Shown piece after piece: positions 128-37,735 of a stretch of 37,735 nucleotides of DNA. This DNA is from a virus: IMG/VR virus record IMGVR_UViG_3300020201_000004, positions 1 through 37,735 of that record, one strand, 5' to 3'. The position numbers and the translations under genes were made by a program. Under the pieces are notes generated by a model. That model did not search any database and had not been told where the DNA came from. It saw only the letters and a list, made by a program, of their open reading frames with translations. Position 1 is the first letter of the stretch. Each line of letters opens with the position of its first letter.

Positions 128-2401
128 CCGTACGACATCCGCTCCGAGGTCGACGCCACGGCCAAGAAAATGGCGAAAGAGCGCGGGTCCGCGGTATCGT
201 GGGAGCAGGCCTTTCATGAGGTTTACGAGCCGCAGGGGTATGTTCTCTACGGCACCGACTCGCGCGACGCGTTCCCCACCGTGATGGTTGACCGCGACAA
301 ACTTGCGCGCCGATTGGGTGTTATCCTCACGAGTGCAGACCTCCACGCGCAGCTAAAGGAACTCGGCTTGCGTGGGATCACCCTGCAGCCCGACGATTTA
401 AAAGAGACGTTGATTCAGGGGCAGCGGGAAACGTGGGTCGTACCGGCTCGAGTAGCGGAAGCGCTCCGAGGGATTGCCGACCGGCAGCACCAAGAGGACA
501 AGCCGATCGAGGCCGCGCTTAAGGGCGTCAATAGCATGTGGAAACGGTGGAAACTGTTCATGCCACAAAATCATATCCGGTACGAATATGGCAACGTCGT
601 CGCGGATCTGGAGAAAATCTTCAGCGCCAGCCCGCGCACGTTCAAATACCTCGGGCAATCGGCGAAGGAAATGCGCGCCTTTTTCCAGGGCGAAGCGCCG
701 AACGACGATCTGCGGTCGGCACTTAAGGACGGAGTGATCAATGCGATCACCGCGCAGGAAATGAACCAACTGCAGCGCCTCCGCTCGTTTGAGAAATTCG
801 AGACGTTCGGCGAAAAGGTGGCGCGCAATGTGCGCAAACGCGCGAGCTCGCTCGGGTATCAGCCCTTTACCAACCTCCTCGGGATCGGAGACCTCTCGAG
901 CGTGGAACTCTCCGCTTTGCGCGAGGGCATCACCCGGTATGCAAACTATCTGGCGAACCTCGATGCCATCCGGAACAACGCGCGTCCGGACTATGCTGGA
1001 GCTTACTGGAGGGACATAGAGGCCATCGGCGACAGTGCGCCAGGTGCCAACGACCGGGCCCAACGGCAGGCAGCCCAGATCTCGAAAGCCACGTTCGGCG
1101 ACTATGGAGATTTGTCCGTCACCGGGGAATACCTCCGTGACAAACTGATCCCGTTTTACTCCTGGATGGAGGTAAACTTCAAATATCACGCGAACCTTTT
1201 TCGGAACCTGCGCGACATGGTCACCGATGGGGAAATGACCCGCGGGGCCGCCGTGGGTAAAGGCGCACGAGCGGTCGCAAGTCTGGCCGTTGGAGTGGGG
1301 GCCCGGGCGGCCGGCGGTATGGTGCTCCGTCTCGCGTTGCCCTACGCCGCGATGACGATTTGGAACAACACCGGTGGGCGCGAGGAGCTCGAGGACAAGC
1401 TGTCGGCGGAGGACCGGCGCCGCGCTCATCTTATTCTAGGCGAGGACGAGAACGGCAAAGTAAACGTTATTTACGGCAACACCGCCCTGGCCGATGTCAT
1501 GAAGTGGTTCTCCGGTCCCGCGTTGATGCAGCACGCCCTGGCATGGATGAGCGGACGCACGGACTTTCTCACCGCGTTCGACGGCTGGCGGACCCAGCTT
1601 CTTCCGGATCTCGCAAACAACACGCTCGGGAGCGCCGGACCGATCGCAAAAATCGGGGTCGCGGCCGCATTCAAGAAAGCGACGTTCCCGGACGTGCTTA
1701 ACGCTCGCACGATCCCGACCTACGATCTGCGGCGAAATATCCTCGGCCAGGCCTTGGACGATTTCACGGCCGACATGATCGAGCGGATCGTCAACAAGGA
1801 CTACGCCGCGCAAAAGGACCTCGGGACGTGGGCGAAGCAGCTTGTCCTCCAGATCCGGCAGCGCGATCCCGAGCAGTGGGCTTTCTACGGGATCAAGGAA
1901 AAGGCCGACGAGTTTAAGGAAAAATGGACCGGAGAACCGGCCGGCGAGAACAGCTCAAACGCCAAGCACCTCCAGGTGCTACGCAATTTCCGCGCGGCGA
2001 TCTTCACAGGCGACGTCGGGGAGGCCTCACGCTTTTACCTCCGGCTATTGGATTACGGATACACGGCCGAGAAATTCGCCGCATCGCTCCGCAGTCAGGA
2101 CCCGCTTTCGAGCCTCAGTAAAAAGAACGGCATGCGGCAGGCCTTCGTCGACAGCCTGGACGGCCCGGACCGGGTGCAGCTCGAGCGCGCGTACACGTAC
2201 TACGGAAAAATGTCCGGAGCTCGAGGCTCCGAGAAACTCCTGTTTCCGTCCGACAAAGGGGGGCCGCGGGGGATCGAGCTCTTCCGCCAGAATCCGCGCC
2301 TTGACCGCCTGCAGGGAGTGATCGAGCGCCAATCAGGCCGGACCGACGAATCGATTGACCTGCAAATCAAACGGGATCTGGCGAGGAGCCTGAAGCGATG
2401 A
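2..2401 (+). CDS. C-terminal part of giant polyvalent / internal virion protein (continues from 32012-37735)
   Basis: This is the end of the gene that begins at 32012. Base 2 is in phase with it, so this stretch holds residues 1867-2665 of a 2,665-residue protein. It has no start of its own; the TTG at base 5 is only an internal codon. The sequence is mostly helical. Around residues 2228-2269 there is a block with the core IPFYSWMEVNFKYHANL, like the PFYSF-type block in C-terminal domains of large polyvalent proteins (LPD38-like, from memory). It is followed by a glycine/alanine-rich hydrophobic stretch at about 2285-2320 that could touch a membrane. The product is probably packaged in the virion and injected; that is inferred from its position after two other internal virion protein genes. 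The gene ends tail to tail with the integrase gene, overlapping it by 35 bp. Confidence 0.88.
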   Translation, partial: YLVDPVGSSKPIETDYVRALYYHLVQLGAHNLKADAVRDHVRPYDIRSEVDATAKKMAKERGSAVSWEQAFHEVYEPQGYVLYGTDSRDAFPTVMVDRDKLARRLGVILTSADLHAQLKELGLRGITLQPDDLKETLIQGQRETWVVPARVAEALRGIADRQHQEDKPIEAALKGVNSMWKRWKLFMPQNHIRYEYGNVVADLEKIFSASPRTFKYLGQSAKEMRAFFQGEAPNDDLRSALKDGVINAITAQEMNQLQRLRSFEKFETFGEKVARNVRKRASSLGYQPFTNLLGIGDLSSVELSALREGITRYANYLANLDAIRNNARPDYAGAYWRDIEAIGDSAPGANDRAQRQAAQISKATFGDYGDLSVTGEYLRDKLIPFYSWMEVNFKYHANLFRNLRDMVTDGEMTRGAAVGKGARAVASLAVGVGARAAGGMVLRLALPYAAMTIWNNTGGREELEDKLSAEDRRRAHLILGEDENGKVNVIYGNTALADVMKWFSGPALMQHALAWMSGRTDFLTAFDGWRTQLLPDLANNTLGSAGPIAKIGVAAAFKKATFPDVLNARTIPTYDLRRNILGQALDDFTADMIERIVNKDYAAQKDLGTWAKQLVLQIRQRDPEQWAFYGIKEKADEFKEKWTGEPAGENSSNAKHLQVLRNFRAAIFTGDVGEASRFYLRLLDYGYTAEKFAASLRSQDPLSSLSKKNGMRQAFVDSLDGPDRVQLERAYTYYGKMSGARGSEKLLFPSDKGGPRGIELFRQNPRLDRLQGVIERQSGRTDESIDLQIKRDLARSLKR

Positions 2402-3575
2402 CCCGCGGCCGCAGGGCTCCAATGGTCTGCGCCTGCTTGGGCGTGAGCCACTGGAGGTAATGCTTGTGAATCATTTCCTTCGAGGTGCCCGCCTCGAGGG
2501 CGACGGCCGCCTCATCCTGGGTTTCCGCCAGCCTCATCGAAATCCACGTGTGCCGGCAAATGTCCTGCTGCCATAGCCGCCCGCGTTCCTTCGAGTAGCG
2601 CAGCGGGATCAGCCCGGCTTGCTCCCGGATCCGGTCGAATAAATTGCGGTCGCGGTTCGCGTCCTGAAGCGGGGCGGGGGATTGTGGCGCCACTTTCCAC
2701 CAGGCACGAAACCCGACCGAGAGCGGCACCTGGCGGCGGTGGCCCCGGCGCTTGCCACGCATGACCCGGACAAACCCGCCGCCGCGTTCAATGACAACGT
2801 TTTCCGGAAGCACAGCGGCGCCTTCACTTGGACGGAGCCCGGCGAATAAACACAAAATCACGTACCGGAGCATACGACCCTCGCCGAGCTCACGCGCAGC
2901 CTCGAGGAATGCCCTCGCCTGGTCGGGCGTAAGGGTGCGCGGAGTGCGGGGATCGATCACCGGCCGCGAAATGCCCTTCAAGGGATGCGTTGGGAGCAGC
3001 TTGCGATCGTCGACCAGGTACGTGCAGAAGCTCGAGACGGCCGCCATGTCGTTGACCCGGGTCTGAGGCCCCACACCCGGCCGTTGTTTCAGTGCCAGGA
3101 CGGACCGGTCATGAATGTCCGAGAGGTACAGGAGCTTTTCGTCGATCAGCCAACGCTCGATCCTTTGTTTCAAATTGAGGCGAGTCCGCGCCTCCGTGTT
3201 CTCCCGCTCTTTAGCCTGGAGGAAATCGGCGAGCAGTCGATCGAGGGGCATGCCGGCATTGGCGGCACCGACGTGGTTCCGCAGCCAGTCCCGGGCAACC
3301 TCGATTAAAGACACGTGAACATGCCCGGCGACGTCCAAGGCCATCCGGGAAGCCTGCCACTCCGAACGCGCCCTGGCGTCAAAGGACAGGCCGATCACGC
3401 CCCCCAGGTGGGTCGCCTCGAGGAGCTCCTTGTGTTTCGCCGTGGCATCGGCCTGGCGGGCGAATTGAAACCGCGTCCGCTTGGGCTTCCCGTGCCGATT
3501 AAGGGCTGTCGGGTCACTGTAAACGACCATCCAAGGGGCAGAGGCGTGGTTTGTCCGGTAAAGTTTGGGGAGCAT
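2367..3575 (-). CDS. int: Tyrosine recombinase / phage integrase
   Basis: Site-specific recombinase that would insert the phage into, and excise it from, a host tRNA gene. With the ATG at 3575 it has 402 residues: an N-terminal arm-binding and core-binding region (about 1-205) and a C-terminal catalytic domain. Visible catalytic residues are Arg248 (LFAGLRPSEG), Lys275 (MRGKRRGHR), Arg341 (DICRHT) and the nucleophile Tyr373 (HKHYLQ). The first residue of the usual HxxR box is Asp, and the usual GH pair is GT. The pattern RHTW...ALEAGTSKEMIHKHYLQW resembles integrases I associate with Verrucomicrobiota. A longer frame opens at TTG 3785, but it would run through the attachment core, so 3575 is preferred although no Shine-Dalgarno is seen. 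It converges with the giant gene and reads against the rest of the genome. Confidence 0.92.
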   Translation of the reverse strand: MLPKLYRTNHASAPWMVVYSDPTALNRHGKPKRTRFQFARQADATAKHKELLEATHLGGVIGLSFDARARSEWQASRMALDVAGHVHVSLIEVARDWLRNHVGAANAGMPLDRLLADFLQAKERENTEARTRLNLKQRIERWLIDEKLLYLSDIHDRSVLALKQRPGVGPQTRVNDMAAVSSFCTYLVDDRKLLPTHPLKGISRPVIDPRTPRTLTPDQARAFLEAARELGEGRMLRYVILCLFAGLRPSEGAAVLPENVVIERGGGFVRVMRGKRRGHRRQVPLSVGFRAWWKVAPQSPAPLQDANRDRNLFDRIREQAGLIPLRYSKERGRLWQQDICRHTWISMRLAETQDEAAVALEAGTSKEMIHKHYLQWLTPKQAQTIGALRPRVIASGSSPDPV

Positions 3576-3594
3576 AGTGGAACAAAGTGGACAC
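3576..3594. repeat. Direct repeat copy 1 flanking the attachment core
   Basis: AGTGGAACAAAGTGGACAC lies directly before the integrase ATG (on the - strand). A second copy with one extra A is at 3776-3795, exactly 200 bp away. The two copies bracket the tRNA fragment at 3701-3749. This arrangement fits arm-type integrase binding sites or the edges of an ancient duplication; which one cannot be told from sequence alone. Confidence 0.7.
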
Positions 3595-3653: not shown

Positions 3654-3700
3654 AAAACTTCGTAACCTTCTTAAAACGTGGGGCTTTAGGGGTTTCGATC

Positions 3701-3749
3701 TGGTGCGAGCGTCGGGAGTCGAACCCGAATCAGCGGCTTCGGAGGCCTC
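3701..3749 (-). other. attP: attP core: 3' half of a tRNA-Arg(CCG)
   Basis: Read on the - strand, this is the 3' end of a tRNA. It starts with an anticodon loop CTCCGAA (3738-3744, anticodon CCG) and the 3' anticodon-stem strand GCCGC. A four-base variable loop follows, then a perfect T arm (stem TCGGG/CCCGA, loop TTCGACT), an acceptor strand CGCTCGC, and A plus CCA ending at 3701. The 5' half (D arm and 5' acceptor strand) is absent, so this is not a functional tRNA gene. Many tyrosine integrases use the 3' part of a tRNA gene as attB; the phage copy restores the tRNA on integration. It lies just upstream of the integrase gene, the usual place for attP. Confidence 0.82.
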
Positions 3750-3775
3750 TGATTTTGAGGGGTAAAGCCCGAAAC

Positions 3776-3795
3776 AGTGGAACAAAAGTGGACAC
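3776..3795. repeat. Direct repeat copy 2 flanking the attachment core
   Basis: AGTGGAACAAAAGTGGACAC is the partner of the copy at 3576-3594, differing by one inserted A. It lies 26 bp beyond the anticodon-stem edge of the tRNA fragment. Confidence 0.7.
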
Positions 3796-3832
3796 GTTTG
3801 GGCGGTAGCCCTCGGGCGTTATTCTTCGAGGT

Positions 3833-3841
3833 ATTTTATCA
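3833..3841 (-). promoter_or_regulatory. Candidate extended -10 promoter for the integrase
   Basis: On the - strand the sequence reads TGATAAAAT, an extended -10 element (TGn before TAAAAT). It lies about 260 bp upstream of the preferred integrase start and reads toward it. No convincing -35 box is visible. A promoter here would be separated from int by the attachment core, so integration would disconnect the two, a known way of shutting off int in the prophage. This is a weak call from a motif. Confidence 0.3.
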
Positions 3842-4179
3842 CAGCCACCGTCGTAACTTGGTCGGAAACATCGTATGCCATCATAGGACTTGACGTCGTA
3901 TACATTGTACCGCGCGAAGTGAACCCGGACCCCGTCCGGGGAGGCGTACCGTGGGTCCAGAGGTCCACACCCTTGACCGTTTCCTTCGATCCCCCGTCCC
4001 CGGACACGGATGAGTCAAGCATTTCAGGTCAGTTTGACAAAAAGGCCGATTTGCCGATTCACATTCGATTATCACTAAAGCCAAGGTAGCCGGCAGATCC
4101 GGTTCGGGATGAACAGCGAGAAGGATGGGTTTCATACTGATGCTACTTGTAAGCAAAAGTGCGCATTGTCGAGAGTTTG

Positions 4180-4196
4180 CGTTGAAACTTTCAACG
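4180..4196. promoter_or_regulatory. Perfect inverted repeat CGTTGAAA-C-TTTCAACG
   Basis: The arms are eight bases with a single central C and no mismatch. It sits in the middle of a non-coding region between the attachment site and the regulator genes. The form suits a binding site for a dimeric protein such as an excisionase, a repressor or a host factor. It is unlike the operator between the two RHH genes, so a different protein is expected. Confidence 0.45.
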
Positions 4197-4238
4197 TCTT
4201 ACGAACCACCCGCCCGAGTGGCCCCTCACACCCAGAAA

Positions 4239-4283
4239 TCCGCCCTAGGCGGAAACAACTTTATAACGCCGTTTTTTTGGCGT
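4239..4283 (-). terminator. Weak terminator candidate after the leftward RHH gene
   Basis: Two small hairpins lie at the end of the leftward gene: ACGCC/GGCGT around an A7-C loop (4266-4283, overlapping the last codons) and TCCGCC/GGCGGA (4239-4253), the latter followed on the - strand by TTTC. Neither has a long U tract, so termination strength is uncertain. Confidence 0.35.
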
Positions 4284-4632
4284 CGCCACCGGTACTTTTG
4301 CCGGCGCGTGACGCTTTCGCCGAGCCTGCCCGCTGATGTAGCGGCGGGAATTTAATCTGCTCACCGGGTGTGGCCCCGGGCGGTCGAGGCATTGATCCTA
4401 CGTAAGTAAGTGGACTGAGGCCTCCGAGACTTTTGTCGCGAGCAACGGGAAGCAGCAAAGCCGTCTCGAGACTATTAACGGGCTGAGCCCCGGCATAGTA
4501 CCAACGCACGAGCACCTCCGCTGCGTACTGGCTTTTACTCCAATTCAGCAACGCCGCCCGCCGAATGATTTCGGCGACGACGTCGTTCTCGAGGTGAACC
4601 CCCAATGTGGAGGAGCTCTTGGACTTTCCCAT
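4261..4632 (-). CDS. Ribbon-helix-helix DNA-binding protein, leftward (lysogeny-switch candidate)
   Basis: This 123-residue protein has an N-terminal ribbon-helix-helix (Arc/MetJ-type) pattern: a short strand STLGVHLE (about residues 8-15), helix A NDVVAEIIRRAALLN, a turn, and helix B SKSQYAAEVLVRWYYA (about 32-47). The remaining 75 residues are proline- and glycine-rich and end in a basic tail. RHH proteins bind as dimers, inserting the strand into the major groove. It is divergent from a second RHH gene at 4718, and the 85 bp between them hold paired inverted repeats. The start ATG at 4632 has no clear Shine-Dalgarno, but a TATACT lies 4-10 bases before it, so the message may be nearly leaderless. 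Which of the two acts as lysogenic repressor cannot be told. Confidence 0.72.
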   Translation of the reverse strand: MGKSKSSSTLGVHLENDVVAEIIRRAALLNWSKSQYAAEVLVRWYYAGAQPVNSLETALLLPVARDKSLGGLSPLTYVGSMPRPPGATPGEQIKFPPLHQRAGSAKASRAGKSTGGDAKKTAL

Positions 4633-4662
4633 AGAAGTATAAGAAATCTAAGAGAAATCCTG

Positions 4663-4668
4663 TTGACA
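4663..4668 (+). promoter_or_regulatory. Candidate -35 box (TTGACA) of rightward early promoter
   Basis: A consensus TTGACA precedes the rightward RHH gene. At the usual spacing the -10 would fall in the A+T-rich first inverted repeat (about 4685-4693), where no good TATAAT is present. Placing the operator over the -10 would give direct repression of rightward transcription. The box match is good; the -10 is weak. Confidence 0.4.
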
Positions 4669-4683
4669 AGACGAAAGCATCGT

Positions 4684-4717
4684 AGACTTTTAAAAGTCTT
4701 AAGACCTTGTTTTGTCT
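4684..4717. promoter_or_regulatory. Tandem operator: AGAC-N8-GTCT, 2 bp, AGAC-N8-GTCT
   Basis: Two identical-format inverted repeats stand in tandem: AGAC(4684)-8 bp-GTCT(4699), then TA, then AGAC(4702)-8 bp-GTCT(4717). The first is a perfect 16-bp palindrome, AGACTTTTAAAAGTCT. The period is 18 bp, and the last GTCT touches the ATG at 4718. Ribbon-helix-helix repressors characteristically fill tandem short repeats cooperatively, and both genes flanking this site code for RHH proteins, so it is the natural target of one or both. Occupancy would cover the promoter and start of the rightward gene. Confidence 0.75.
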
Positions 4718-4930
4718 ATGAATTCGTCAACATCTGAAAAAGGAACCCTTGGGGTGTACGTCCCCAACGAAGTTCGCGCGGCGCTAACCAAACGCGCGGC
4801 AGAAGAGGACCGTTCCGTTAGCTACGTCGCCGCCCGAATTCTCAGGAAGGTGATGCAGGATGCGCAGGCAGCGGAAGCCCCGCGCGTCGTGAACTTCGCG
4901 ACCCAGCCCGCCCCCGACCGCAAGCCGTAG
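4718..4930 (+). CDS. Small ribbon-helix-helix protein, rightward (early regulator)
   Basis: This 70-residue protein is almost entirely one RHH unit: strand TLGVYVP (about 9-15), helix A NEVRAALTKRAAEED (16-30), turn, and helix B SVSYVAARILRKVMQDA (32-48), followed by a short disordered tail. It shares the LGV..E/N-V start of its strand with the divergent gene at 4632, suggesting related DNA specificity. The ATG at 4718 follows the operator immediately; a TTG six bases upstream is possible but would lie inside the operator. It is the first gene of the long rightward operon, the place where a Cro-like regulator is expected in temperate phages. That role is inference; the fold call is firm. Confidence 0.72.
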   Translation: MNSSTSEKGTLGVYVPNEVRAALTKRAAEEDRSVSYVAARILRKVMQDAQAAEAPRVVNFATQPAPDRKP

Positions 4931-4967: not shown

Positions 4968-5387
4968 ATGGCCAAGATTTTGCCCCCCTCTATGGGGGAA
5001 CTCTCCAAAGGAAGCACGGAGCCCCAGCCCACGGCCAGCCTCCGGGAAACCACCGCCCCCGCCCACGCCGCCCTTGTCCGCGGCGACGACGGCGGCCTTA
5101 CCGTCCGTCACTTCGACTCCACCGCCGACGCCACCGCCGCCTGTGCGGCCTACGAGCCGCCCGCACCGTCCGCCCAGGACATGCAGCGCAACATGACCTC
5201 GACGCATGCCTTTGCTCATGAAATCGGAATGCACCCCAAGACGCTTCGCCGGGCCGTGATCAAGTACCGGCTCCCGGCCGTCGACCACGGAGCGCACTCG
5301 CTGTTCATCCCGAACCGGATCTGCCGGCTGATCCGGCTCTACGGGCTCCGCGGCGTCGCCGGCATGTCACTCCGCGGCGAACTCTGA
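4968..5387 (+). CDS. Winged-helix/excisionase-like DNA-binding protein
   Basis: The protein has 139 residues. The first 75 are proline/alanine-rich and probably flexible. The last 60 look like a DNA-binding domain: STHAFAHEIGMHPKTLRRAV (79-97) fits a helix-turn-helix, then YRLPAVDHGAHSLFIP (100-115) fits a wing, and a final helix NRICRLIRLYG follows. This order (HTH, short beta wing, helix) is that of excisionase/MerR-type small winged helices. It lies second in the rightward operon, close to attP, so Xis or an early transcription regulator are both reasonable. No membrane segment is present. The start is ATG without Shine-Dalgarno. Confidence 0.55.
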   Translation: MAKILPPSMGELSKGSTEPQPTASLRETTAPAHAALVRGDDGGLTVRHFDSTADATAACAAYEPPAPSAQDMQRNMTSTHAFAHEIGMHPKTLRRAVIKYRLPAVDHGAHSLFIPNRICRLIRLYGLRGVAGMSLRGEL

Positions 5388-14459: not shown

Positions 14460-14810
14460 ATGAGCGTTACCGAATCAAAGTTTATCGGATTCTCAACCGA
14501 CGACCATGAACCCTTCGGCACCCCGATCGAGGTTACGCTGCCATTCACCCGTGCAAAATTCCACGTGCTCAGGCGTTCGGAAACCAAGCACGAAGGCGGC
14601 CGCTTGATTTACACCCTCGAACTCATTCCCGCCGAAAACAAATATTTCACGGCGTCAACCGGCGAGCGCCGCCGCGAGCGCTGCGAGAATGACGAGGTAT
14701 GGCCCACGACGCCCCTCGGTACGATCAGCCTGAACGACGTTCGCAAAGAGATCTTCGATAAGTACCAAGCCGGCAGCGCCGTCTTCGTCGACCTGATCCC
14801 AACCCGATGA
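14460..14810 (+). CDS. Hypothetical protein between terminase and portal (116 aa)
   Basis: The family is not recognised. Beta-rich sequence (EVTLPFTRAKFHVLRR, GGRLIYTLELIPAENK, SAVFVDLIPTR) suggests a small barrel or sandwich. The start could be ATG 14442, overlapping terL, or ATG 14460 with a GGTGG five to ten bases upstream; the latter is chosen. It overlaps the portal gene by ATGA. The place would suit a head-completion or small virion protein. Confidence 0.6.
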   Translation: MSVTESKFIGFSTDDHEPFGTPIEVTLPFTRAKFHVLRRSETKHEGGRLIYTLELIPAENKYFTASTGERRRERCENDEVWPTTPLGTISLNDVRKEIFDKYQAGSAVFVDLIPTR

Positions 14811-16708
14811 GCCGCGAAATCGCCAAAAAGGTCACAGCAGACCTCGCCGCCCGCAAAGCCGGGTGGGAGGACAAGCAACGCGTCTGGTACGAGATGCGCC
14901 ACGAGGGAATCCGCCGGAAGTCCAAGCCCTTCGCCGGGGCGGCCGATCTGCATTACCCCCTTGGCGACGGCATGATCGACAAACTGAAGCCGTTTTTCTG
15001 GGCGCAGGTGTTCGGCAACGAGACAATCGCGACCTTCATCTCCGAAAGTAAGCAGGACGCCGAACTCACCCGCGGAGCCGCCAACGCGTTCGACTTCCAC
15101 GTCAAAGAAGAGACCAACTTTTTTGAGGAGATCCTCTCCAATATCGACAACATGGGAATGTCGGGCGGAGCGCCGGTGAAAGTCTGGTGGAACGCCGCCA
15201 AGGGTCGCCTCGAATTCGACGCGATTGACCCAATCTTTTTCGTCGTCCCGAAAGGCACGAAGGATCTGGAGAACGCGACACGCGCGACCCACGTCATGCA
15301 GATGTCCGTCGAGGAGTACAAACTCGATGACCGCTACGACCAGGAGGAGGAGACGATCCGCCGGATCAAAGGCAAGGGCGTCGCGGAGAACGACAGCGCC
15401 GGCAAAACGGACGAAAAGTACAACCGCGAGGGCATGACGTTCGGAGACAGCGACGATCAAATCGTCCTTTGGGAAGTGTTCGAACGGTCGAAGACGGGGA
15501 TCAGGGTATACACGTTCGCCCCGTGCAATCCCGAGGTGCCGGTGCGCAAGCCCTTCGACCTGGCTCTGCCTTACGACCGCCTGCCGTTTTTCCATTTCAA
15601 GATGGAAATCAAAGACAAGGGCTACCATGCGCCGCGGGGAATTATGGAGCGGATCGCCGCGCACGAGTCCTACCTGAACCGACTCTGGAACGAGAAGGCG
15701 GACTCGATGACGTTTCTCAATAAGCCGATCTTCACCCACGACGGGACCGCGCTTAACCTGCAAAATATCCGGCTCACGCCCGGGCAGGTGGTCCCGAACA
15801 ACCTGCGCAAAGTCGACATGGGGAAAACCCCGTTCGACATCGATCAGGAAATGACGCAAACGCGGATGACCGCGGAATATCAGATCGGCATGCCCGATTT
15901 CGGCATAGGGCAGAACATCAATACGAAAGAGCGCAAGACTGCGACCGAGGTTTCCGCCATGGGAAACTTGATGAGCCAGAGTACCGATCTACGAGCGTGG
16001 ATCTTCCGCCGCGACTTGGCCAAGCTGTACCGCTTCGCGTGGCAACTCCTCCAGCACTTCGGCAGGGAGAAATTGGAAAGCTACTACGCCGACAACGAAC
16101 TGGTGGCCGTGCCCGAGGAAGCGCTCGCCGCCTCTTACCGGATCCAACCGAGCGGCACCGCCGACGGATGGAACCGCGCCGCGCGGGCCGCCCGCGCCCT
16201 CCAAAGGCTGCAAGCGTACCGAGGCGACCCAAGTGTCAACCAGGCCGCACTCACGCGCCACGCGCTGGACGAGGACGATCCCCGGCTGGTTAAAACGCTT
16301 TGGCAGGATCCCGGCATGGCGAAAGAAGGCCAGGTCGAAGATCAGGCCGGCGAAATTGCGATCCTGCAGATCGGCTTTTCCGCTCGCGTCACCGCGGCCG
16401 ACGACGACCAGGTGCACCTCGAGACCGTCTTTGGTTTCGTCCAGGCGCAAATGACGATGGGCAGACCCATCGAGCCCTTGTTTGCGAAAAAACTCATGGA
16501 GCACGTGCAAAAGCACCTCCAGCAGCTGCACCCCAAAAACGCCTCGCTCGCGAATCAGATCGGCAAGGCCGCCGAGCAGCTTTTCGCCCCGCTCATGCAG
16601 CAGGTCCAAGAGCTGGAGCAGACCATGCAGCAAGCCGGGCAACAGCCACAACTTCCGCCGCCGCCGCAAGGGCAGCCCGAGCTCATGCCCCAACAGGCTG
16701 CCGCATGA
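14807..16708 (+). CDS. Portal protein
   Basis: The 633-residue protein would form the dodecameric ring at the packaging vertex, contacting terminase, scaffold and neck. Size, position after terL, and sequence features fit podovirus portals: the wing region (AADLHYPLGDGMIDKLKPFF, VFGNETIATFISE), VKVWWNAAKGRLEFDAIDP, then LPFFHFKMEIKDKGYHAPRG, MERIAAHESYLNRLWNEKAD and the long helix region around TEVSAMGNLMSQSTDLRAW. The C-terminal 70 residues are a glutamine-rich coiled coil with a proline-rich end (the barrel-like segment). The start ATGA overlaps the preceding gene. Confidence 0.85.
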   Translation: MSREIAKKVTADLAARKAGWEDKQRVWYEMRHEGIRRKSKPFAGAADLHYPLGDGMIDKLKPFFWAQVFGNETIATFISESKQDAELTRGAANAFDFHVKEETNFFEEILSNIDNMGMSGGAPVKVWWNAAKGRLEFDAIDPIFFVVPKGTKDLENATRATHVMQMSVEEYKLDDRYDQEEETIRRIKGKGVAENDSAGKTDEKYNREGMTFGDSDDQIVLWEVFERSKTGIRVYTFAPCNPEVPVRKPFDLALPYDRLPFFHFKMEIKDKGYHAPRGIMERIAAHESYLNRLWNEKADSMTFLNKPIFTHDGTALNLQNIRLTPGQVVPNNLRKVDMGKTPFDIDQEMTQTRMTAEYQIGMPDFGIGQNINTKERKTATEVSAMGNLMSQSTDLRAWIFRRDLAKLYRFAWQLLQHFGREKLESYYADNELVAVPEEALAASYRIQPSGTADGWNRAARAARALQRLQAYRGDPSVNQAALTRHALDEDDPRLVKTLWQDPGMAKEGQVEDQAGEIAILQIGFSARVTAADDDQVHLETVFGFVQAQMTMGRPIEPLFAKKLMEHVQKHLQQLHPKNASLANQIGKAAEQLFAPLMQQVQELEQTMQQAGQQPQLPPPPQGQPELMPQQAAA

Positions 16709-35000: not shown

Positions 35001-37735
35001 TTGACTTCCTTCGCTCGCCTGTCGTACTCTACAGCAGTGAAAACGCAGTTTACCAAAGAGCCCGCCAGCAATTCGACAGCGCCCGGACAGGCCTCAGCGA
35101 GACGCAGCGCGAGGGCTTTGAACCCGATGACGGACGCGGAGTTCGCGGCGTTCGCGGACAAGCTTTCGGAGGAAGGCCTGGCGAACTTGAATCGGAACGC
35201 CCTGGCGGATCCGGCCCCGCAGCCAACTACGGGACCCTACGCAGTGCGCCAGCCCCGCGCATCCTGACCGATGAACAGGTTTCCCGTCAGTGGGAGACCC
35301 TGAAGACGGCGCTCGGCCCCGTTGCCGAGGAATTTGATTTACACCTGGGTATCGTTGCTGAGGTGCTCGAGGAGGAAGGCTACACCCGCGAGGCGGGTTT
35401 ACTTCGTGCCGGCAAGATCGGCACCATCCAAGCGGCCACCGCGCCACGAGCGCGGGAACTAATCACCGAGGCCAAGGCCCAGCGGCAATTCATCGTGATC
35501 GCGGCCGATGCCGCCAAAGAACAGAAGGCACCGGGGCTTTTACTCCATGAATTAGCTCACCCTTTCTTTGATTCATTGCCGAGCGAGACCAAAGCGGTCT
35601 TACGCGAGATGCACCAGGAGGAGACGGAGAACCGCACCGGCCCTCTCTACAAAGACGGCGAACTCCAAACCGACATTGCGATCACCGCGGACGATCTGCC
35701 GCGGGCTCGTGTCGCAGCTGATCCCGATCTGCCGGTCAAGGAATGGTTCGCCGAGCGCACGCGTCGGCTAAATGAGGCATGGCTTGATGGCCGGATGTCA
35801 TTTGGCGAGCGGCCACTCCTTGCTCGAGTAGCCCGCCAACTCCTTGAGCGCTTGCGCAAAATCTGGGCACAGATGCGCGGCATGCGTCAAGATGATGACC
35901 TTTTCACCGATACGTTCCAGGGTTGGCTTGCGAGCGGCACCCGGGCGAACATCGCTCCGGAGGCGACGGCTTACGCGCAGCGGCAACGCTCCAGAGTGCA
36001 AATGGCGAGCCGCAAGCGCAAGCCCGAGCGCGACGCCCAGGCGGAGCTTCTCAAAATCGAGGAAGAGCAAAAGGCGATGACCGAAGGCGTCGACCAGTCG
36101 GATCCGACCGAACTCGAGGCCCGCGGGAAAGCGCTTCAGGCGCGCGCCGAAGAGTTGAGGAAAGAGGCGAAGGCCGAGGAGCGGGAAACCCGCGCGGCCG
36201 GGGCAAACGAACCGGCGTCAACGCTCAGCGAAGGCGCGCGGGAGTCGTCTCACCCGGCGGCCGTGGGGACCGTGGAACCGGGCGAAGCCTGGGCGAGCGT
36301 CAACAAGATGACGCCCGAGCAGCTGCGCGAGGAGCAGGAGAACATCGGGCAATTCTTCAACGCCAACGTCGACGATTCGAACATTTCGAAGGCGTTGCTC
36401 TGGCAGCGGGTGGACGCCGTGAAAGCGGAGGTCGAGCGCCGGGCCGCGGAAGCGGATCCGATTGCGCGCGCGCCCAGGGTGACGGCGCTCCCGGTCGTGG
36501 ACCGCAAGGCGGCACTCCTCGCAGAGTGGCGCCGTGGCAAGGCACTGCGAGACGAGGGGCTCAAGACCGGAAACGAGACCGCGGAAACCGAAGGGCAGAC
36601 GCTCGTCAACCGGATCAAAGTGCGCCTCGATGAAGAATTTCCGGACTGGGAAAAGGACGGGTATCGGAAAACTCCCGACACACGCAGCGCGCCGAGTGCT
36701 CGGAGAGAAGACGACGGGCGCAACCTGCCCGAAGAACCACAATCTGAATACGACGAAGACGCGCCAGCGATCGAGGACCCGGCTCCGCCGGTTCGCGACG
36801 GCAAGATCGATGGGCTCTATGGGAACACGGCCTACATTCCAACGTTCAAAGAACAGTCGGTCGACTATATCAGGAAGACGGCCGTCGGGATCCGGGGATC
36901 CATTCCCGAGTTGCCGACGTTCCCGGCCCTCGCCCGGGGCAACGACCGCTTTATCCGTGAAAAGGGCGATCAATTCTATAACCGCCTCCGCGCCTTCTAC
37001 CGAGCGCTCAAATCCGGCAACGACTACGTGCAGCGCACGGCCGAAGAGCAGGTAGCGGCGATCACCAAACCCTTGCTCGACATCGGCGGGGCGTTTCCGG
37101 CGGCCACCCTGAAGAAACTCCAGACAAGGCAGGCGCAGTTGCGTGCTCTGCGTGCCGAGGGCAAGCCCATGCCGCGGGGAGCGAAAGCCGACCTCGCCGC
37201 CCTCAATAGCAAGCTCGAAGGGAACCCGTACGTCCTTTTCAACCGGTTCGTTCTCGCACTCGATCTTGATTGGCGCCACCGGAACCTGAAGGACAGCGCG
37301 GGGAACCCGATCAAACTGCCCAACGGTATCAATGGCTCAGAAATCGGCGCGGAGCTCGAGGCCCTGGGGGCGAAGATCGAGGCCAGCCCGCACAAAGCCG
37401 CCATCGCGAAATCGGTCGACCGGCACATGGCGCTCGTGAAGCAGATCGGTGCGGACCTCAAAGGGCGCGAACTCCTCGCAGCCGATCACCTCAATAACCC
37501 GTATTATTTTCCGCACCTCACACTCGAGACCAAGCGCGGCGACAAGACGATCCAGCGCGAACTGGAGCCCGAGCGGGTCCGCGTAGGGACCGAGGCCGAT
37601 TTTCGCGGCTACTTGGTCGACCCGGTGGGATCGAGTAAACCGATCGAGACCGACTACGTCCGCGCGCTTTACTATCACCTGGTACAGCTGGGGGCGCACA
37701 ACCTAAAGGCCGATGCGGTGCGCGATCACGTGCGA
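32012..37735 (+). CDS. Giant polyvalent / internal virion protein (residues 1-1908; continues at base 2)
   Basis: The frame is open from ATG 32012 to the window end and continues in phase at base 2 to 2401: 2,665 residues in all. In order: three FDPDxY(L/I) motifs (3, 23, 38); glycine/alanine-rich hydrophobic stretches (about 167-205, 280-330); long charged coiled coil (450-640); a zeta-toxin-like kinase module (about 790-990) with LNTD (817-820) and Walker A GGGGSGKSS (873-881); a low-complexity linker (1025-1085) that appears out of frame; a zincin motif HELAH (1179-1183) with a possible third ligand in EWFAE (1244-1248); and helical polyvalent-type domains to the end. Such proteins are injected with DNA by phages and conjugative elements, carrying several effector domains (the polyvalent protein concept). 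Kinase third-position GC is lower (34/60 counted) than at residues near 1365 (35/44). Confidence 0.85.
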   Translation, partial: MSFDPDLYLAGKPQPTTAPTSTFDPDAYLAGKPQRKAFDPDEYIERNGVYDTQSDLKDTVNTLVRSAHEGWTGAIEGGERMLSSAPEMVGKIAELYTKGRQAGGADSGQSPQDQSAALQTIRTNTAQIRPALEQSGVIGKAMTSGMDYLKKDADFLQARRQKVDAALPIDRDFAGSTFGGVTAAVGQIGSQIPAMLSGLGLPTAIGQMYDQGYHDAKQHGADEGTAAVSGLGNMPQAALEFAADKMQLGPVLDLLKKGKAGARTASKVAGNVMGAAATEAGTEAVQQVAGNAVAMGLYERDRTLTEGVGQAALVGGIAGGGIRGGAEGVSALLDTGQNVQESQKTLEAQQAQLLEGKRPAMMFPAKTKEALDLPDGFERVQTPRGIFHYNPALVSAEKVQELSAAGRENEILNLGSVSKPEAMQRAAAGDPLVSITERDAQGNEVRAAAGNESMAAQTMAELERTKTNGNTIGKETPGQTILERIRADIDAQEAGTRETQEREERQRDERQAELRSKQNQFDSTMAAARALAADQDADYTKISGALTSLTSYAEDNSLGIRQDQRNQALAAIAKLEPRAAAMRPAFEAEQSQRADAAKIAAQQEELAKRARIQADRAAVKQQAAQGIGASGEIVYARLKDIDLETRAVAGDKRAERELMQRAEREDDPRESLLAALASVKLPSTDGGLGTELKLLREDMTPAQQRALIGKKGDSLDRTAEALRGRGFTEILTPDDVITFTQRALRGEDIRANQSGGDEIGDVSYATENRLKVQPLEGLTEKERAHETRFAEQLNAATDAENDARYDALPESKGGWVLNTDIGRELDPEFKGAARAELSRATHRPAGRYIRDRFSRILKKMTPAENPVVRFLSGGGGSGKSSVLPGSMQNGVLTYDTTFSSTKDAFADIDEALQSGRRILIDYVHRPIEGAITGAIFRAKKPSDGRTVPLQTLARAHYGAQQTFLAVAERYTNDPRVVLKAWDNSGPEGSAYRVANPVDFLRSPVVLYSSENAVYQRARQQFDSARTGLSETQREGFEPDDGRGVRGVRGQAFGGRPGELESERPGGSGPAANYGTLRSAPAPRILTDEQVSRQWETLKTALGPVAEEFDLHLGIVAEVLEEEGYTREAGLLRAGKIGTIQAATAPRARELITEAKAQRQFIVIAADAAKEQKAPGLLLHELAHPFFDSLPSETKAVLREMHQEETENRTGPLYKDGELQTDIAITADDLPRARVAADPDLPVKEWFAERTRRLNEAWLDGRMSFGERPLLARVARQLLERLRKIWAQMRGMRQDDDLFTDTFQGWLASGTRANIAPEATAYAQRQRSRVQMASRKRKPERDAQAELLKIEEEQKAMTEGVDQSDPTELEARGKALQARAEELRKEAKAEERETRAAGANEPASTLSEGARESSHPAAVGTVEPGEAWASVNKMTPEQLREEQENIGQFFNANVDDSNISKALLWQRVDAVKAEVERRAAEADPIARAPRVTALPVVDRKAALLAEWRRGKALRDEGLKTGNETAETEGQTLVNRIKVRLDEEFPDWEKDGYRKTPDTRSAPSARREDDGRNLPEEPQSEYDEDAPAIEDPAPPVRDGKIDGLYGNTAYIPTFKEQSVDYIRKTAVGIRGSIPELPTFPALARGNDRFIREKGDQFYNRLRAFYRALKSGNDYVQRTAEEQVAAITKPLLDIGGAFPAATLKKLQTRQAQLRALRAEGKPMPRGAKADLAALNSKLEGNPYVLFNRFVLALDLDWRHRNLKDSAGNPIKLPNGINGSEIGAELEALGAKIEASPHKAAIAKSVDRHMALVKQIGADLKGRELLAADHLNNPYYFPHLTLETKRGDKTIQRELEPERVRVGTEADFRGYLVDPVGSSKPIETDYVRALYYHLVQLGAHNLKADAVRDHVR
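35127..35267 (+). CDS. Nested small ORF in another frame within the giant gene (46 aa; up to 76 aa from GTG 35037)
   Basis: In this frame the protein reads MTDAEFAAFADKLSEEGLAN, LNRNALADPAPQ and a short end, and the codons look real: 37 of 46 third positions are G or C by my count, against about 25 of 45 for the giant frame over the same bases, where the product is GVRGVRGQAFGGRPGELE and similar. The segment follows the zeta-like kinase module directly. It could be an overlapping gene, the relic of a second gene of a toxin-antitoxin-like pair read through out of frame, or a double-compensated frameshift in a tolerant linker. Confidence 0.35.
   Translation: MTDAEFAAFADKLSEEGLANLNRNALADPAPQPTTGPYAVRQPRAS
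37609..37735. repeat. Terminal redundancy, right copy (identical to 1-127)
   Basis: Exact copy of the first 127 bases; see the left copy. The codon phase of the giant gene is kept across it. Confidence 0.95.

Follow-up and report, generated by a model that had tools for sequence, protein, structure and literature searches.

The temperate-phage repressors that have been studied in detail are mostly helix-turn-helix (HTH) proteins, and a pair of ribbon-helix-helix (RHH) proteins is known from P22, where it forms a side module. There mnt (minus strand, 14519-14770 of the P22 record) and arc (plus strand, 14861-15022) are divergent and lie 90 bp apart, and the gap between them contains Oarc, Omnt and both promoters. 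This immI region is a secondary one, located in the late region and controlling ant, with a separate CI present in the phage. The module at mnt/arc differs among P22-like phages (PMC2629481). In the lambda CI/Cro region, divergent regulators and repeated operators lie between integrase/attP and the early genes, and CopG-type plasmid repressors are each the product of a single autoregulated copy-control gene.

A sequence-only reading of the DNA described here had proposed a lysogeny switch made of two divergent RHH regulators, and had held that Arc and Mnt of P22 are not such a divergent pair. The latter statement is wrong, as the P22 record has mnt on the minus and arc on the plus strand. Because mnt and arc form a divergent RHH pair with operators between them, P22 immI is in fact the closest precedent for the present locus.

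The stretch analysed, referred to below as the window, is an IMG/VR virus sequence of 37,735 bp. Bases 1-127 are identical to bases 37609-37735, an exact terminal repeat of 127 bp, and a 1,908-residue frame leaves the right end and resumes as a 798-residue frame at the left end, one very large gene spanning the ends of the record. The identical ends, together with the frame running across them, indicate a circle of 37,608 bp. The terminase is closest to those of Akkermansia phages (39% identity) and is also near those of prophages of Chthoniobacteraceae and other Verrucomicrobiota (at most 50% identity), and the host is therefore very probably a Verrucomicrobiota bacterium. In a single genome of Luteolibacter pohnpeiensis, relatives of the terminase occur on three different scaffolds (L022, L023 and L024), which suggests several related prophages in one strain. 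The features of the region under study are as follows.

2367 to 3578, minus strand: tyrosine recombinase (integrase; PHROG integrase, 1.2e-20)
3700 to 3744, minus strand: attP core, the 3' part of a tRNA-Arg(CCG) from the anticodon onwards, adjoining the integrase
4261 to 4632, minus strand: left RHH gene P0002, 123 aa, proposed lysogeny-side repressor
4633 to 4717, no strand: divergent intergenic region, 85 bp, AT-rich, proposed shared operator/promoter
4663 to 4668, plus strand: TTGACA, a -35-like hexamer with no good -10 at normal spacing
4669 to 4672, plus strand: extra AGAC half-site, seen in the sequence
4684 to 4699, no strand: operator-like box 1, AGACTTTTAAAAGTCT, a perfect 16-bp palindrome
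4696 to 4705, no strand: junction palindrome GTCTTAAGAC, perfect over 10 bp
4702 to 4717, no strand: operator-like box 2, AGACCTTGTTTTGTCT, palindromic in its 4-bp arms only; the ATG begins at the next base
4718 to 4930, plus strand: right RHH gene P0001, 70 aa, first early gene, proposed Arc/Cro-like autoregulator
4968 to 5387, plus strand: next early gene, 139 aa, possible DNA-binding protein (weak match to PHROG 597, DNA binding protein, 0.015)

RHH domains of the two flanking genes

P0001 clearly carries an RHH domain, as judged from family profiles, a confident model and a fold search, and belongs to the RHH superfamily. It matches Pfam RHH_5 at E 3e-4, under the curated cut-off, and the PHROG Arc-like repressor family at 1e-5. 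Its model has helices at residues 17-30 and 34-53, with a pLDDT of about 90 across residues 11-50, and its PDB matches by profile and fold are CopG, Arc, ORF56 and CdbA (probability up to 0.99 for the model). With P0002, searches of the protein alone against Pfam, PHROG and NCBIfam gave no RHH match. Its RHH domain would occupy approximately residues 8-48, and the C-terminal 60 or so residues are predicted to be disordered. P0002 is 45% identical to P0001 across 33 aa (E 3e-6) and has relatives in Verrucomicrobiota genomes (L119, L120, L123, L127 and L131) that make up an RHH-like family. The profile of this family, which does not include P0001, matches P0001 at E 0.013, and in the PDB it matches CopG only, at 0.45. 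The model of P0002 is of low confidence (mean pLDDT 54) but places helices at residues 16-28 and 33-46 with RHH-type spacing, and its fold matches are mostly RHH, none of them individually significant. Several weak but agreeing tests thus support an RHH domain in P0002 and its place in the same superfamily, so that the earlier claim of RHH proteins on both sides of the gap stands, clearly for the right gene and by this route for the left.

No close relatives of P0001 or P0002 were found in IMG/VR. The TIG-type RHH-like family is represented by two tandem genes on the minus strand of one Verrucomicrobiota genome (L120, 1630-1800 and 1814-1993), and it occurs twice in another (L127, L131).

The two RHH domains are alike (z about 10.5), and TLGV is aligned between them in the strand predicted to contact DNA. 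Alignment to CopG has T, G and Y facing outward in one protein, against T, G and H in its partner, a pattern that would fit a similar DNA specificity or a shared operator. RHH is the common fold of antitoxins and small centromere-binding proteins, and the phage proteins that best match P0001, from cluster A mycobacteriophages, carry the labels ParB-like or Arc-like, so the two proteins could be antitoxins of toxin-antitoxin systems or ParG/CdbA-like partition proteins rather than phage regulators. This we regard as very improbable: no toxin was recognised beside either gene by Pfam, NCBIfam or PADLOC, no ParA-like gene was recognised among the scanned genes, and plasmid-style partition is unnecessary for an element with an integrase and an att core.

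The intergenic region and its boxes

The gap is 33% GC, compared with 61% for the genome. The sequence-only reading had noted AGAC-N8-GTCT twice with an 18-bp period up to the ATG, and both copies were recovered as exact matches at 4684-4699 and 4702-4717. These are the only two matches in the whole 37.7-kb record (expected 0.32); at least two were present in 3 of 100 shuffles, and the complete 34-bp tandem has one occurrence in the record. Unlike those of P22 immI, the boxes share half-sites, and dyads are found at 4691.5, 4700.5 and 4709.5, i.e. every 9 bp. An alternative reading of the half-sites is a single central site flanked by outer half-sites. CopG dimers on their own operator show the same 9-bp spacing, which we take as a lead rather than a test.

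Five AGAC/GTCT motifs are present in the gap, as many as in 0.3% of shuffles. In dinucleotide shuffles of the gap, with sequence and spacer freely chosen, a tandem 4-bp-arm inverted repeat of any kind was seen in 0.58%, a perfect palindrome of at least 16 bp in 0.32%, and the two together in 0.005%. Applied to sliding 85-nt windows of the genome, the tandem test gave a positive result in 22 of 3765 (0.6%), so that the tandem alone is unusual, not unique. Boxes with one mismatch showed no excess elsewhere in the genome (8 seen, 9.9 expected). Across IMG/VR the tandem pattern occurred in 10 contigs; on inspection all were chance cases (coding repeats or other), and none had a divergent RHH pair: the tandem shows no conservation. 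AGAC/GTCT is also contained in the met boxes of MetJ; nothing further points to MetJ as a binder here, and this candidate was set aside as a coincidence.

We consider it probable that both genes encode RHH proteins whose operator region is the gap. A promoter scan of the gap returned no site above the consensus filter, TTGACA at 4663 having poor -10 partners only. Both boxes are in the right half of the gap, with box 2 directly at the start of P0001, and because they abut its ATG they may serve the right gene. On such a reading P0001 (perhaps also P0002) would repress its own promoter only, and P0002, encoded next to attP, would act otherwise, e.g. as an accessory factor in integration or excision; a P0001-like gene elsewhere (L133) does belong to an early operon, where it precedes an excisionase-like gene and has no divergent RHH partner. 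Simple autoregulation is nevertheless unlikely in our judgement, given that both promoters must fit in the gap and that the two RHH domains resemble each other, contact strand included.

Integration functions and the search for a conventional repressor

The phage is temperate, with an intact tyrosine integrase and a tRNA-derived att core that matches a host tRNA. The GLRPSE, RHTW and HKHY motifs of the integrase (its Arg, Arg-His and Tyr motifs) are all found; its reading frame opens at 3785, and the start codon is likely to be near 3578. The integrase gave no match among phage records. The att core shares 44 of 45 positions with a tRNA-Arg(ccg) on a Verrucomicrobiota chromosome (L137), and the two sequences diverge just beyond the anticodon. 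An attP in a tRNA usually takes this form, a 3' part of the tRNA with divergence beyond it. Allowing one mismatch, the core was found in 1 of 384 genomes of the class searched, and no exact copy was found in GTDB contigs. A tRNA finder and Rfam reported no tRNA over the att region, as expected for half a gene, and two eukaryotic RNA matches from Rfam in this region were discarded as sub-threshold. Once integrated at tRNA-Arg, the prophage would have the integrase at one end and the RHH pair at the other. From attP to the left RHH gene there are approximately 500 bp (3745-4260) without a convincing gene, and these possibly hold integrase arm sites.

The gene order is integrase, attP, left regulator, then divergently the right regulator and the early genes. 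As in the lambda CI/Cro region, a divergent pair of regulators with repeated (here putative) operators lies between integrase/attP and the early genes, but the fold is RHH, and neither HTH_3 nor Peptidase_S24 was found in any of the six frames of the window. The same six-frame search was run on three related phages, Chambord, Chantilly and the Akkermansia phage DTMo-2021a. Chantilly gave both HTH_3 and S24 and Chambord gave S24, serving as positive controls, and DTMo-2021a (L015) gave neither. That the window lacks a CI-like HTH repressor, as had been claimed, is borne out by this search, which finds such domains in two related phages; an HTH_3 repressor of the CI/Cro type, with or without S24, is absent from it. 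Most predicted genes were also scanned by Pfam or PHROGs, and no repressor was found. The pair is the only switch-like region recognised in this phage.

The pair shares with P22 immI a longer RHH gene leading leftward, a shorter one leading rightward and a gap of similar length (85 bp here, 90 bp in P22) with a predicted operator region in it. Orthology is a different matter: no similarity to Mnt or Arc could be detected for the left gene (z below 1 each), and the right gene shows general RHH similarity only (z about 5). In P22, Mnt and Arc control an antirepressor (PMC2629481). By this precedent the pair here could be an accessory, immI-like module with a side function, with lysogeny depending on some unrecognised regulator, for instance the product of 4968-5387. 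The weak DNA-binding profile match of that gene is in keeping with the suggestion; its product has no Pfam or NCBIfam match and was not recognised as an antirepressor, and it is possibly a further or atypical regulator or an excisionase, making it the first candidate for an unrecognised repressor. We rate an accessory role as fairly unlikely. No antirepressor family was recognised by Pfam, PHROG or NCBIfam among the genes after the right RHH gene, so the gene that follows arc in P22 has no counterpart here, and no CI-type protein was found; moreover, unlike immI, the pair heads the early genes beside the integrase and attP, rather than forming a late-region moron. What would be new here is the P22-like layout at the main immunity position instead of at a minor control region. 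CopG-type plasmid repressors agree with the present proteins in fold and, by profile, in family; they differ in being encoded singly, whereas this phage has a divergent pair.

RHH clusters in related phages and a proposed switch

RHH genes are also found in some of the terminase relatives. In DTMo-2021a (L015) and in a locus of an Akkermansia muciniphila metagenome-assembled genome (L035), two RHH genes are accompanied by three copies of GGTGGTKAACCACC at corresponding positions, the first of which exactly fills the 17-bp spacer of a consensus-like promoter, TTGACT...TATG[TG]T. An Akkermansia glycaniphila prophage (L030) has three tandem RHH reading frames with three copies of GGTGTASTACACC, and the frames are followed by a replication gene that is related to the window's own.

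L015 at 1949, 2282 and 2339; L035 at 248, 581 and 638: copies of GGTGGTKAACCACC within the RHH gene pair
L030 at 5823, 6175 and 6247: copies of GGTGTASTACACC, one of them just after TTGAC

These clusters resemble the present locus in belonging to the same terminase group, in standing at the start of the early region and in having repeated palindromes. They differ in that their genes are tandem on one strand with boxes partly inside coding sequence, whereas the pair here is divergent, and the sequences of their palindromes are not those of the boxes here. From L015, L035 and L030 it appears that RHH genes with palindromic boxes head the early genes in this phage group, and the terminase relatives may be counted as independent support for an RHH control region. 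In L016-L021, the nearest relatives by terminase, the available sequence of the early regions showed no RHH genes. S24 repressors are present in Chambord and Chantilly, where RHH genes were not detected, and in the small sample of four phage records that were compared the two kinds of gene were not found together. The genome of L030 has one S24 match, which is strong, LexA-like in score and located on contig C15.

Our preferred reading, held at about even confidence, is that the region is the immunity region of a temperate Verrucomicrobiota phage in which two RHH repressors replace CI/Cro; a role as lysogeny switch is plausible to the same degree. Of the original proposal, the layout, the temperate phage, the want of a CI-type repressor and the position at immunity all speak for a two-RHH switch, and its contrast with P22 falls away. 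In such a switch, RHH dimers of P0001, P0002 or both would bind the palindromic AGAC/GTCT boxes of the gap, and occupation of the boxes abutting the P0001 start would turn off the rightward early operon (P0001, the 4968 gene and the replication genes). The longer protein, P0002, would maintain lysogeny, and the short P0001 would have an Arc- or Cro-like part, holding down the early operon as well as the P0002 promoter. In the circular phage the P0002 transcript may continue through attP into the integrase, and integration at tRNA-Arg would then separate the two genes. A stronger form, to which we give tentative credence only, is that the immunity module of this phage group is either of the CI/S24 type or of the RHH type, the latter being represented here by a divergent pair that, in the manner of CI/Cro, competes for a single set of boxes.

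Little literature was found on phage repressors in Verrucomicrobiota. If true, an RHH-only switch would mean that a logic like that of CI/Cro can also be realised with another fold, and it would provide an immunity region for Verrucomicrobiota phages, gut Akkermansia phages included. The alternation of RHH genes and S24 repressors among the terminase relatives makes the question of a switch directly testable.
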